From: Caulobacter sp. NIBR2454
Lineage (GTDB): Bacteria > Pseudomonadota > Alphaproteobacteria > Caulobacterales > Caulobacteraceae
Length of the DNA stretch: 64,000 nt
Assembly (NCBI RefSeq): GCF_027474405.1
Contig: NZ_CP114871.1
Span: forward strand, 1,683,001-1,747,000
Reading direction: 5' to 3'
In this document: one piece after another, positions 41,219 through 45,602 of the stretch
How positions within the stretch are numbered: position 1 is the stretch's first letter
How the letters are laid out: each line of letters begins with the position of its first letter
The notes under the pieces: model-generated
The model's input: the letters and a program-made list of their open reading frames with translations, nothing else
Told to the model about the DNA's origin: nothing
Databases searched by the model: none
Position numbers and translations under genes: made by a program

Positions 41219-42151
41219 TCAGTTGCGCGGCGGCTTTGGCGGAACCGGCGGCGCCGGTTGCACGCGCACGGCGCGCATCCTGGCGGCGGCTTCGGCTTGG
41301 GCCGCCCGAGCTTCGGCCTGGGCGGCGCGAGCCTCGGCCTGGGCTTCCGCATGGATCACCACGCGGCGATGGCGGCTAGCGCAGCCCTTGGACGTGATGC
41401 CCGACGGCAGGCGGGTGGAGGAATTGCTGCAGGCGTCGTCGATCTGGTCCTGGGTCAGGCCCTTGGCGCGAGACAGGTCCGCGCCATGCAGATTGGCGTT
41501 GCTCAGATCGGCGTTGCGGAAGTCTGCGCCGTCGAAGTCGGCCCCGGTCATGATGGCGCTGTTTAGATCGGTGTTGCGGAAGTCCGCCCCGCTGAAATTG
41601 CCGGCGGACAGGTTCGCGGCGTTCATTTCGGAGTTACGAAAATCGACCCTGCGGGCGTCGGCGCCGACCATGATGACGCCGTGCAGTTCGCTATGGCGCA
41701 GATCGGCCTCGGTCAGCTGGGCCTTGCTGAAGTTCACGCCCTTGAGCTCGGCGCTGCGCAGATCGACGCGGCGGAGGCGCGCGGCCACGAAGTTGGAGCC
41801 GGTGGCCTCGATCCCTTCCATCTGGGCGCCCGAGAACTCGGCGCTCTGGAAGTTGGCGCCCATCATATAGGCCCCGCGCAGATCGACCCGCGACAGGTCG
41901 GCGCTGGCGAAGTTGGAGCCCACGATGCGGGCGCCGCGCATGTCGGCGCCGACCAGGTTGGCGCTCTGAAAATTGGCGCCGTTGATGCGGGCGTTGAGCA
42001 ACTTCTTGCCCGACAGGTCGCACCCGCCGCAGGACCCGCTGAGCGAGATCATGCGGGCCACGTCCTTTTCGCCGTTAGGCGCGCGCGCTTCGGCCACGCC
42101 GGCGGTCGCGGCGAGCAGAAGAGCGGAAAGGGCGAAGGCGATACGCGGCAT
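41219..42151 (-). CDS. Exported pentapeptide-repeat protein
   Basis: This is a 310-residue protein with a signal peptide ending EARA near residue 23. A CGGC motif (Cys41 and Cys44) opens the repeat domain. About 38 tandem pentapeptides A(D/N)LXX follow (about residues 45-235), predicted to form a right-handed quadrilateral beta helix. After a segment with two cysteines (DDACSNSS and KGCASRHRR) comes an Ala/Glu/Gln/Arg-rich helical tail with AEARAAQ repeats, then a Pro-rich end. GGAG lies seven bases before the ATG. It follows the NrdJ-like gene by 58 bases on the same strand. Most pentapeptide-repeat proteins of this type are cytoplasmic, so export is notable. The function is unknown. Confidence 0.85.
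   Translation of the reverse strand: MPRIAFALSALLLAATAGVAEARAPNGEKDVARMISLSGSCGGCDLSGKKLLNARINGANFQSANLVGADMRGARIVGSNFASADLSRVDLRGAYMMGANFQSAEFSGAQMEGIEATGSNFVAARLRRVDLRSAELKGVNFSKAQLTEADLRHSELHGVIMVGADARRVDFRNSEMNAANLSAGNFSGADFRNTDLNSAIMTGADFDGADFRNADLSNANLHGADLSRAKGLTQDQIDDACSNSSTRLPSGITSKGCASRHRRVVIHAEAQAEARAAQAEARAAQAEAAARMRAVRVQPAPPVPPKPPRN
41291..41344. repeat. 21-bp tandem repeat, about 2.5 copies, in the pentapeptide protein tail
   Basis: Two 21-bp units (41291-41311 and 41312-41332) differ at three positions, with a partial third to 41344. They encode the AEARAAQ heptads of the C-terminal helix. The unit is a multiple of three, so copy-number change would keep the frame. Confidence 0.7.
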
Positions 42152-42209: not shown

Positions 42210-44990
42210 TTAATTCGAGTTAATGGCGCCGCCGTCGCTCCGGCCTGCCTGAACGCCACAGGTGTCGCAGACGCTCAAGCCCCCGCGCTGGACCAGCGCC
42301 TGATCGCCGCAAGCGGGGCACATGCCGGCCAAGGGGCCTGTGACAGCCTGGGTTTCAGCCTTGCGGCCGCCGAAGGGAAGCAGGACCAGGTTGTCGGGCG
42401 CCGCGCCGCGCGAGAAACCCTTGGAGATGAATTTGGACGCCAACTGCGGCGTTTCGTCCTCCGCCCCCTCGGGCGCGTTCTTGCCGGCCCCGAGGCCGTC
42501 GGCGTTGAACTCGGCCGGGTCGGCGTTGGCCAGGTCGTCGCGGCCCAGATAGGACACGCCCAGTTCGCGGAAGATGTAGTCGAGGATCGAGGTCGCCGAG
42601 CGGATGGAGTCGTTGCCCGTGACCGGGCCGGCCGGCTCGAAGCGCGTATAGACGAAGGCGTCGACGAACTCGTCGAGCGGCACGCCATGCTGCAGGCCGA
42701 TGGAGACCGCGATGGCGAAGTTGTTCATCAGCGAGCGGAAGGCGGCGCCTTCCTTGTGCATGTCGATGAAGATCTCGCCCAACTCGCCGTCGTCGTATTC
42801 GCCGGTGTGGATGTAGACCTTGTGTCCGCCCACAGCGGCCTTCTGGATGTAGCCCTTGCGGCGGTCGGGCAGCTTTCGGCGGGCGCGGTCGCGTTCGACG
42901 ATCTTCTCGACGATGCGCTCGCGGATTTCAGGGGCGGATTCCAGCCGGCGACGAGTCGTTTCCTCGACCTCCGGCAGGTCCAGGGCGAAGCTGGCCGGGG
43001 CGGGACCGCGCACCAGACGCAGGGCGCGCACGCCCGCGCGGGCGGCGGCGGCTTGCAGACGGGCGGCCTCGGTCGGGCTGTCGGCGAAGTCCAGCTCCAG
43101 CGCGACGGCGGAGGGGGTGCAGACGAAGGCCTCGATGGCGGCCGTCATGGACAGGCGCGCGGGCAGGGCGATCTCGGCCGGCTCGGCGAACACCGACTGG
43201 GCGCGCTCGCCCAGGAACGGCGCGTCCGACAGGCGCCGAGCGCCCAAGGCGTAGGTCTCGGCGGCGGCGATCTCGTCGGGCGTGAAGCCCGCGAAGGCCA
43301 GGGTGTCGAAGTCCGGATCCATGACCGCGTCGCTGTCGGCGCCCAGGACGTCGCAGACGAAGCCGGCCTCGATCACCGCCGGAGCGAAAGCGGCGCGCAG
43401 GGAGCCAGCCAGGGGCAGGACGGCTTCGGCCGCGGCGATCTCATGGGCGGTGAAGCCCTTGGCCTCCAGCGCTGCGTGGTCGATGGCCGGCGCCTCGCGC
43501 AGATCGCCGACGCCCAGGGCGTGCGCCCGTAGATCGTCAGCCAGACCCAGGGCCTTGGCGCCGGTCAGGGCGGCGTCGGCCAGGACGGGGACGATCTCGC
43601 CGTCGGCGGTCTCGGAGACCGTGACGGCTCCGGTCCAGGGCGCGGCGCCCAAGGGCGCGCCGAGACGCAGGGCGAGCTCGGCGTCTTCGAAGAGAGAGCT
43701 TACGGCGGTGTGGGCCAGCTTTTCGGAGTGCTGCGCGGCGTCGCTGAACAGGGTTGCGGCGCGGGCGGCGATGTCGCCCTTCAGCTTGCGGGCGGCCTGG
43801 GCCCGGCGGCGCAGGGCGGCGGCGAGGGCGGCGCGGTCGTCCTCGGCCAGCGGAGCGGCGGCGGCCCGGGCGGCGATTTCGGCAGAGGCGCGGAAGGCCT
43901 CAGCCGTGAGCAGGGCGAAGAGGACGGAGGCGGCCTTGCGACCGTCTTCCGCGCCATAGGGCAGGCCGAGGGCGACGATGTGATCGCCCAGCCCGGCCAG
44001 GGTCAGGTCGATGCGGCCCGCGGGCAGGCCGGCGGCGGCGCGCTCGATCTCAAGCGCGGCGGTCATCAGGCCGACCACGTGGCTGAAGGCGTCGAGGTCA
44101 AGGCCGCCGTCAGAGACGAAGGCGCGGATGTCGATGGCGGCGGCGGGTGCGGAGGCTTGCAGGGCCGCCGCATCGAGAGGATCGAAGGCCAGGGTCAGGC
44201 GGCCGGTCTCCCAACCCGCCTGGGCGGCGCGGCGGGCGGAGGGCTCGGCGGCCTCCACGGTCTTGCGGATAGCGGAGACGAACAGACGAGCGGGGGCGGC
44301 CAGGGCGGGGGTGGCCTGCGGGATGGGCGCGGCGCCGGCGCGGGCCAGCAGGATGGCGTCGGCGATCTGGGCGTCGTCGGCCCCGGCTTCGCGGGCGGCG
44401 CGAGCGGCGCGGGCCAGCGCCGTGTTGCGACGGGGATCGGCGCAGGCGGCCGCGTCGCCCTCGCAGCGGGCCACGGCGTCCGAAACGGCGGCGAGGCGGG
44501 CGGACAGGTGGCCGGCGGCGCGCTCGGCGCAGGTGGCGGCGCGGGTCTGGGCCACATGGCGCGCGGCGGCGGCGTTGAACTCAAGATCGTCCAGGGCGGC
44601 GCTCTCGGCGCGGCCGGCGGGAGCGAGCGTGGCCGGGGCGACATAGCCGAGGGTCAGGGCGGCGAACAGTTCTTCGCGGAAGGCCTGGGCGTCGGCGGCC
44701 TTTGCGAACAGGCCCTGGGCCAGGCCGAAGGCGGCTAGGCGGCGAGCGTAGCGGTCGGGACCGCCGGCCAGCAGGGCGCCGGTGGGCGATTCGGCGATCA
44801 GGGCCTTTGGCGTATCGGCATGCGGCAGGTCGTGGGGAAGCTGGGCGGCCCAGTCGAGCCAGGCCTGAACCCGAGCGTCAGGCCAGCTCTTGGGGGCGAG
44901 AACCCCGGCCAGAGCGTCCGCGGTCTCGACGGTGCGCAGCTCGACCTCCGCCGCACGCCCATGGGCCGAAAGACGCCTTACGAACCGCAT
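42210..44990 (-). CDS. Degenerate NrdJ-like protein (TSCPD and zinc-ribbon domains)
   Basis: This is a 926-residue relative of the class II (B12-dependent) ribonucleotide reductase. The C-terminal 215 residues are close to Nrd[27 protein letters not shown] (from residue 710), the [20 protein letters not shown] stretch, [15 protein letters not shown], and a zinc ribbon with Cys891/894/908/911. Weaker NrdJ-like segments persist upstream: [17 protein letters not shown] (298-314), [18 protein letters not shown] and [20 protein letters not shown] (493-512). However, the catalytic NPCSE and ACNLASLN motifs are absent, and the PTGTIG loop appears only as PWTGAV (451-456). NrdJ is usually near 1,200 residues. 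It is probably a pseudoenzyme or a protein with a new function. GGGAGA precedes the ATG. Confidence 0.85.
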
Positions 44991-45053
44991 GAAGCGACTC
45001 TCCCGTTAACCTCGCCGCGAAAAGCTAAAGGCCGGGAGGGGTGCGATCAATAG

Positions 45054-45090
45054 ATGTTGGGGTTCGCGCCGGCTTATCCCCAACATGTTG
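45054..45090. promoter_or_regulatory. Inverted repeat between the NrdJ-like gene and NDUFA12 gene
   Basis: ATGTTGGGG (45054-45062) and CCCCAACAT (45078-45086) form 9-bp perfect arms with a 15-base loop. The right arm also overlaps the 10-bp palindrome CAACATGTTG (45081-45090). The element lies in the shared upstream region of two divergent genes, so it is a candidate operator. Confidence 0.45.
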
Positions 45091-45158
45091 CATATTTCGC
45101 GATGCTGGACGCTGCCCGACGCCCCGCCTATATTCCGCGCGCGTCCGCTGACCGGCGG

Positions 45159-45602
45159 ATGTTGCGCCCCCTGTTTTCGGAAGCGATCGCCCGCGTGCTG
45201 AACCTGCTGAAATCGATCTTCACCTGGTGGAACCAAGGCACTGTGGGCCTGCGCTTCACCGTCAGCCGCCTGGGCCGTTTTGTTGGCCAGGATGAGTACG
45301 GCAACCGCTACTTCGAAGCCCGCGACGACCGCGAAAGCTATGACGTGGGCCGCAAGCGCCGCTGGGTGATCTTCCGCGGCTATGCCGACGCGTCGAAGGT
45401 GCCGGCCGAATGGCACGGCTGGCTGCACTACACCCTGGACGAGGTCCCGACCGACGAGCCGCTGGCGCGCAAGGTCTGGGAGAAGGATCACCTGCCCAAT
45501 CTGACCGGCACCGTCCATGCCTGGCGCCCGCAGGGCTCCATCGCGCGAAGCGGTGAGCGTCCGGCCGCCACGGGCGACTATCAGGCCTGGTCGCCGGAGT
45601 AA
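45159..45602 (+). CDS. NADH:ubiquinone oxidoreductase NDUFA12-like subunit
   Basis: This is a small supernumerary complex I subunit (17.2 kDa family) shared by alphaproteobacteria and mitochondria. Family features: LLKSIFTWWNQGTVGLRFTV, LGRFVGQDEYGNRYFEARD, RRWVIFRGYADASKVPAEWHGWLHY and the conserved final YQAWSPE. The start is uncertain. ATG at 45159 (147 residues) lies too close to its GGCGG, and GTG at 45195 (135 residues) fits the family N terminus better but has a distant GGAAG. It is far from any nuo operon in this window. The next gene begins 14 bases after its stop. Confidence 0.9.
   Translation: MLRPLFSEAIARVLNLLKSIFTWWNQGTVGLRFTVSRLGRFVGQDEYGNRYFEARDDRESYDVGRKRRWVIFRGYADASKVPAEWHGWLHYTLDEVPTDEPLARKVWEKDHLPNLTGTVHAWRPQGSIARSGERPAATGDYQAWSPE

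Follow-up and report, generated by a model that had tools for sequence, protein, structure and literature searches.

What keeps a reductase gene in a genome once the enzyme that it encoded has gone? The question is raised by a gene of Caulobacter sp. NIBR2454 on the minus strand of a 64,000-nucleotide stretch (assembly GCF_027474405.1, contig NZ_CP114871.1, positions 1,683,001 to 1,747,000), which we call the window and whose numbering is used throughout. A first-pass annotation, made from the letters alone, took its 926-residue product for a pseudoenzyme derived from NrdJ, the class II ribonucleotide reductase (RNR). That reading holds, since the RNR active site is absent and the gene is under purifying selection across an order, the Caulobacterales. 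The gene is probably kept for another job in DNA-precursor supply.

Loss of the reductase active site

We call a copy ‘dead’ or ‘degenerate’ when it is such a match to NrdJ of the long alphaproteobacterial type, and ‘true’ when the NPCSE motif is present. Motifs were surveyed in 160 dead copies (from 40 loci and from 120 database proteins, two sets that may overlap) and in 20 true NrdJ proteins. The motifs NPCSE, CNLAS, PTGT, GSGTG and HACF occur in 0/160 dead copies, whereas all five are found in 20/20 true NrdJ; the thiyl-radical cysteine of the finger loop, which lies in NPCSE, is thus missing from every copy. The active-site redox cysteines (the HACF and ACNL sites) are retained in 0/41 dead copies and 20/20 true NrdJ, and the same counts hold for the C-terminal redox pair. 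With cysteine roles taken from the account in PMC5704485, this pair corresponds to Cys933 and Cys945 of Stackebrandtia nassauensis NrdJ; Leu905 and Arg917 stand in its place in the 926-residue protein. The four zinc ligands of the tail are retained in 39/41 dead copies. A looser scan of 171 database proteins gave no cysteine motif, but four putative matches to a loosened PTGT pattern and one to a loosened GSGTG pattern.

Hidden Markov model (HMM) alignments made separately for four families agree: no cysteine stands at the thiyl or redox sites, which are deleted, uncovered or substituted. The thiyl position is deleted in the alignments of f1, f160 and f2 and is a glycine in that of f159, and the missing stretches, as aligned, vary between the four families. 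Family f1 is taken as the Caulobacteraceae, and the order as the Caulobacterales, going by the names given to the closest database proteins and to named loci that carry the gene. Cysteine counts over the last 110 residues tell a similar story, with six in 19 of the 20 true NrdJ (eight in the other) and exactly four in 158/160 dead copies (zero in L084 and L085); of the 171 database proteins, 169 have four, one has five and one has two.

The loss of NPCSE and ACNLASLN reported in the first-pass annotation is therefore confirmed, and HACF with the first redox cysteine, the GSGTG loop and the two tail redox cysteines can be added to it. None of the three catalytic cysteines, whose presence would have spoken against a pseudoenzyme, is in place. 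The substrate loop PTGTIG had been read as surviving in altered form as PWTGAV; the HMM alignment instead puts PTGTIG opposite EDAELA (residues 435-440), 16 residues before PWTGAV.

An active RNR with displaced catalytic residues would account for the predicted AlphaFold2 (AF2) model, which has a structural match to the RNR catalytic-subunit fold, and for the label ‘ribonucleotide reductase’ under which such proteins are annotated and, in the scheme of PMC6538847, counted as NrdJ. This explanation is scarcely credible and we rejected it, as the catalytic and redox cysteines are absent and, outside the zinc ribbon, no cysteine is conserved in more than 26 of the 41 copies. The protein has nine cysteines in all. 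Its match to the NCBIfam NrdJ model NF005736 reaches 400.5 bits against a curated cut-off of 1737, and neither residues nor score place it among class II RNR enzymes. The Pfam RNR barrel (PF02867) scores 23.0 bits, just below its cut-off of 23.9 (24.7 bits in the genome search). The Pfam profile search found no ATP-cone in the protein. The TSCPD segment and four-cysteine ribbon are present as first described, the TSCPD family (PF12637) scoring 42.3 bits against a gathering cut-off of 22.8, with the best stretch at residues 720-810. The full-length AF2 model is poor over the TSCPD domain, with a predicted local distance difference test (pLDDT) score of about 50, which rises to 76 when the domain is modelled separately.

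Descent from an ancestral nrdJ

We compared an alignment of 49 dead-type proteins (A1) with one of 20 true NrdJ (A2) using hhalign. The two match nearly end to end, the N-terminal part included, at a probability of 100 and an E-value of 9e-178. Together with the gene order of true nrdJ, this makes chance resemblance untenable and bears out the kinship with class II RNR along most of the length that had been seen by eye. The N-terminus is Ala-rich as stated, but it is not foreign to NrdJ: the profile-profile comparison aligns the NrdJ N-domain there. The frame is open, as had also been said, with an ATG start and no internal stop; GGGAGAG, a good ribosome-binding site, lies upstream.

The locus has the order accC-aat-DUF2155-NDUFA12-[gene]-pentapeptide-aspS. 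NDUFA12 adjoins the gene in 39/40 dead loci (L082-L121, the exception being L099). For true NrdJ, the block is whole or partial in 6/10 loci of the order (L064-L069) and in 5/10 of other orders (L072-L075, L080), and in many loci the pentapeptide-repeat gene follows nrdJ, whether true or dead. Full-length homology and a shared locus thus identify the gene as the ancestral nrdJ altered in place, an orthologue by descent. A recent duplicate is ruled out by the shared locus and because full NrdJ and a dead copy never occur together in a genome of the order set, all 35 genomes with full NrdJ having a single TSCPD match. In one contig of the set (G491:C44), nrdJ and aspS are each split into two frames, probably by sequencing errors.

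Selection on the TSCPD domain

The ratio of nonsynonymous to synonymous substitution rates (dN/dS) was computed for the gene and its three closest relatives (L212-L214; 86-87% identity, six pairs). The whole-gene values are 0.13-0.22; residues 704-822 give 0.00-0.024, and no segment reaches 0.52 in any pair. The reading frame is open in L212-L214; a pseudogene was rejected, there being no stops, frameshifts or relaxed selection in these relatives, and the pseudogene decay that could have undone the first-pass reading is not seen.

Counting columns at least 90% conserved, residues 1-703 retain 9/574 in dead copies against 245 in true NrdJ, whereas the TSCPD region (704-822) has 91/119 in dead copies and 90 in true NrdJ, 81 of them with the same residue. 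The corresponding figures are 11/51 and 5 for residues 823-880, and 5/39 and 19 for residues 881-926. A motif at residues 855-868 (42387-42428), between the TSCPD domain and the ribbon, sits in the stretch 823-880, which dead copies conserve better than true NrdJ does. Across 25 genomes, mean TSCPD identity is 87% between dead copies, 87% between true copies and 84% between the two kinds; for RpoB, the same pairs of genomes yield 77%, 79% and 75%. In segments 80-280, 284-400 and 481-665, identity is 24-28% among dead copies and 58-63% among true ones; at the ribbon end (855-915), the two kinds hardly differ (42 and 43%). Loss of the enzyme has had no measurable effect on the TSCPD domain.

Distribution and origins of the dead copies

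NrdJ scores above cut-off in 0/149 genomes of the Caulobacteraceae; 137 have a match at an E-value of 1e-48 or better, all below 430 bits, and five of the 12 genomes without one are less than 90% complete. In the order set, full-length NrdJ is present in 35/150 genomes (29 above cut-off, six at 1623-1728 bits) and a degenerate match, at 1.7e-57 or better, in 106/150. A TSCPD match was found in 141/150; G312 was missed, its TSCPD stretch being partly N. In the wider class set, NrdJ is above cut-off in 166/289 genomes. A Caulobacter vibrioides genome has TSCPD and no NrdJ above cut-off.

A relic in slow decay since class I RNR took over would fit the low identity (24-28%) of barrel and N-domain among dead copies, the clean loss of the gene in some genomes and the loss of the zinc ribbon in 2/40 loci. 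Given the breadth of retention in order and family, the low dN/dS throughout and the undiminished TSCPD constraint, we regard such a relic as very unlikely.

On the RpoB tree, a common origin of all dead copies is rejected (approximately unbiased test, p 0.0008; three changes, two of them forced by starred branches), whereas on the tree of the TSCPD gene it is not (p 0.375). As, in addition, four true NrdJ loci discussed below might have been regained, several origins are likely but not proven. The AspS tree, with seven true/dead changes, was left unused since it draws an outgroup row within the order and breaks families up; its pattern is as expected from a transfer of aspS.

Other TSCPD proteins came to light in the survey. 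Some genomes (G063:C1, G378:C3 and G450:C1 are examples) have a further TSCPD frame, shorter at some 740-780 amino acids (aa) and resembling canonical short NrdJ; in G063, such a frame is the sole TSCPD frame found. Genomes of other alphaproteobacterial families (among them G121, G225, G218, G115 and G219) give intermediate NF005736 scores like those of dead copies, with E-values around 1e-65 to 1e-85, and judging by these scores further dead NrdJ may exist outside the Caulobacterales.

Tandem NrdR boxes at the promoter

Pairs of NrdR-like boxes were scanned at 31-33 bp spacing (30-34 in the window) with a general NrdR box consensus and thresholds set after a first look. The pair at 45048-45092 scores 19 of 24 and is the sole pair of at least 19 within the 64 kb. 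Both boxes are probably intergenic, because the family match of the divergent neighbour NDUFA12 starts at residue 50 of its open reading frame (ORF); the longest ORF begins some 49 codons too early (45054-45200). They are conserved among close relatives, and box pairs also precede nrdB and nrdA of the same genome, at 31 and 32 bp.

From 160 loci tried, 146 usable and distinct upstream regions were obtained. A box pair is present in 42/51 dead copies of the Caulobacteraceae and near metagenome-assembled genomes, in 31/65 true NrdJ of other orders, in 0/1 unclear copy and in 52/4000 random 500-mers. In four loci that lost the gene and still have NDUFA12, no box pair is left. The genome encodes an NrdR protein (L321:1073-1540:-, TIGR00244 at 176.7 bits against 124.65). 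According to PMC9110341, NrdR tetramers bind a pair of boxes separated by some three helix turns and repress as dATP rises. Ahead of the dead nrdJ of the Caulobacteraceae there are thus tandem NrdR boxes resembling those of nrdA and nrdB, and control by NrdR is predicted from them. The first-pass annotation had suggested a role in reading nucleotide or B12 state: the boxes at the promoter favour a tie to nucleotides, and nothing in our analysis speaks for B12.

A proposed role in DNA-precursor supply

Apart from the dead NrdJ, the genome search found one PF02867 protein, class I NrdA, so that the search for NrdJ or NrdAB elsewhere that had been proposed turned up class I NrdA and NrdB; with NrdR, all pass their curated cut-offs. 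Class I NrdB is found in 149/150 genomes of the order set, in G441 weakly. A profile search found no ATP-cone in NrdA of this genome. A single ATP-cone match is present in 148/150 order genomes, mostly in NrdR-sized frames (in NrdR itself in the source genome), and from these profile matches the class I RNR of the Caulobacterales seems to be without an ATP-cone.

We put the probability at about 0.55 that the protein is a non-catalytic scaffold whose TSCPD domain has the same ligand or partner as in active NrdJ and which thereby aids the supply or use of deoxyribonucleoside triphosphates (dNTPs). TSCPD would then have a function independent of RNR catalysis. As NrdR acts as a repressor at high dATP, the protein would be produced during dNTP shortage, in support of dNTP supply or use. 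The simplest direct target would be NrdAB, the class I RNR that replaced NrdJ; this target is a guess. The best lead on the role of TSCPD is by analogy: PMC5704485 reports, for the active Stackebrandtia NrdJ, that the tail domain drives oligomers induced by dATP and dGTP. PMC9669993 stated in 2022 that no role had been reported for the IscU-like (TSCPD) domain of class II RNRs.

Several observations weigh against this scaffold. Neither kind of gene is present in nine of the 150 order genomes (G063, G335, G352 and six from genus g252). At the locus, the loss is clean in G063, G335, G352 and G304, and certain lineages can therefore do without the gene; for three g252 genomes, the ancestral block was not found at aat. 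L062, L063, L070 and L071, four of the order's ten true NrdJ loci, lie outside the accC-aat-NDUFA12 block and may be moved or regained genes. Box 2 departs from the consensus, with T for one G and one conserved GC pair lost, and a box pair occurs in just 5/19 dead copies outside the Caulobacteraceae and 1/10 true NrdJ of the order. NrdAB may not be the general partner of TSCPD, since the domain is equally conserved in true NrdJ, where NrdAB need not coexist. A precise RNR-like interface is doubtful because the barrel and N-domain segments diverge so fast. Finally, the single ATP-cone is also found in true-NrdJ relatives and gene-less genomes and does not track the dead copy.

A dNTP-binding oligomer acting by itself, as a buffer or sensor and without effect on NrdAB, would suit the NrdR boxes. 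It also draws on PMC5704485, where the higher oligomers of Stackebrandtia NrdJ (tetramers and hexamers induced by dATP/dGTP) need the tail domain and there are hints of a third nucleotide site. The discussion in that paper does not locate the site, and the GSGTG region is missing in dead copies; we consider this reading improbable. The GSGTG loop region, the specificity site and dimer contact of RNR, is either absent or no longer recognisable. On sequence grounds it is therefore an unlikely route for sensing nucleotides, and sensing via a B12 or GSGTG site was rejected.

The function might instead be unrelated to dNTP supply, with TSCPD, ribbon and YebC-like segment binding nucleic acid or the ribosome, or serving an IscU-like traffic of metal or sulfur, and the boxes left over. 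By hhalign, the segment after the N-domain resembles the YebC/TACO1 N-domain at 95% probability in true NrdJ and 80% (37 columns) in dead copies, and non-overlapping control segments all stay below 1%; such likeness makes a link to RNA or the ribosome possible in an RNR. The segment spans residues ~325-405 in L062 and is retained in dead copies. All fold and ribbon matches are weak, however; residues 704-822 hold no cysteine, and the cysteine/aspartate cluster ligands of IscU are absent. Leftover boxes are hard to reconcile with a fixed spacing in 42/51 copies and disappearance where the gene has gone. We think an unrelated function unlikely, though it deserves more weight than the free-standing oligomer.

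Returning to the scaffold, a bolder version can be offered tentatively: TSCPD of class II RNRs would have a function of its own, and the Caulobacterales, probably more than once, would have stripped the enzyme and kept an NrdR-controlled regulatory subunit, perhaps a dATP/dGTP switch in trans for a class I RNR that lacks one. A ruined catalytic core beside an untouched TSCPD domain is a natural separation experiment; it occurs in an order that includes a model cell-cycle organism and allows TSCPD function to be tested without interfering RNR activity.

Features of the locus

Table 1. Parts of the dead nrdJ gene, its promoter and its neighbours in the window
Feature	Position	Strand	Basis or remark
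Dead NrdJ orthologue, 926 aa	42210..44990	minus	ORF call, hhalign, locus, motif loss
Residues 1-160, diverged NrdJ N-domain	44511..44990	minus	Profile-profile alignment; AF2 pLDDT 75-97 by blocks of ten
Residues 161-225, helical segment	44316..44510	minus	Common to alphaproteobacterial NrdJ; resembles YebC/TACO1 N-domain
Residues 226-665, RNR barrel remnant without finger loop	42996..44315	minus	
Residues 704-822, TSCPD domain and lead-in	42525..42881	minus	PF12637, conservation, dN/dS
Residues 891-911, zinc ribbon CxxC-x13-CxxC	42258..42320	minus	
Ribosome-binding site GGGAGAG	44998..45004	minus	Read from sequence, 8-14 nt before ATG
NrdR box 1 (TGCAACATGTTGGG)	45079..45092	minus	-102 from ATG; both conserved GC pairs
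NrdR box 2 (CCCAACATCTATTG)	45048..45061	minus	-71 from ATG; 31 bp from box 1
NDUFA12, divergent neighbour of ancestral nrdJ locus	45201..45602	plus	NF006040 above cut-off; synteny
Pentapeptide-repeat protein	41219..42151	minus	Best model Alr5209, 114.6 bits, just below cut-off 125

Comparison with known systems

PMC6538847 shows CCNA_01966 of Caulobacter crescentus as NrdJ in the nucleotide-reduction pathway of its scheme, with B12 serving dNTP production, and PMC5869019 lists the same gene as a vitamin B12-dependent ribonucleotide reductase. The database protein ‘ribonucleotide reductase [Caulobacter vibrioides]’ (P0121) is degenerate, and CCNA_01966 is very probably catalytically dead. This calls into question that scheme as drawn, from B12 to dNTPs via CCNA_01966. 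Among the matches listed in the open-licence PMC literature, we found no description of a catalytically dead NrdJ in Caulobacter, and the literature searched yielded nothing on the essentiality of the gene.

Reuse of the RNR large-subunit fold after catalysis was lost has a precedent in the R1 pseudo-RNRs of herpesviruses; these differ from dead NrdJ in being viral and class I, lack a TSCPD domain and stem from an unrelated event. The NCBIfam model NF005401 (‘ribonucleotide reductase-like protein’, 604 positions) is RNR-related without being named an RNR, and is matched by 5/49 members of A1, at a best E-value of 2e-9 against 4e-139 for NF005736. With the C-terminal cysteine-rich domain of NrdJ and NrdJb, as described in PMC5704485 and PMC9669993, the dead copies share the TSCPD (IscU-like) domain and the zinc finger with its four zinc cysteines, but they have lost the electron-relay redox pair and carry the domain on a dead barrel. 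The closest relative is the long alphaproteobacterial NrdJ (NF005736; Rhodobacter sphaeroides 7b9p/7b9q), with which they share locus, N-domain, barrel fold, TSCPD domain and zinc ribbon. They differ from it in the absence of the finger-loop cysteine, the core and tail redox cysteines and GSGTG/PTGTIG, and in length, the frames of dead loci mostly encoding 765-1050 aa against 1184-1282 in true NrdJ.
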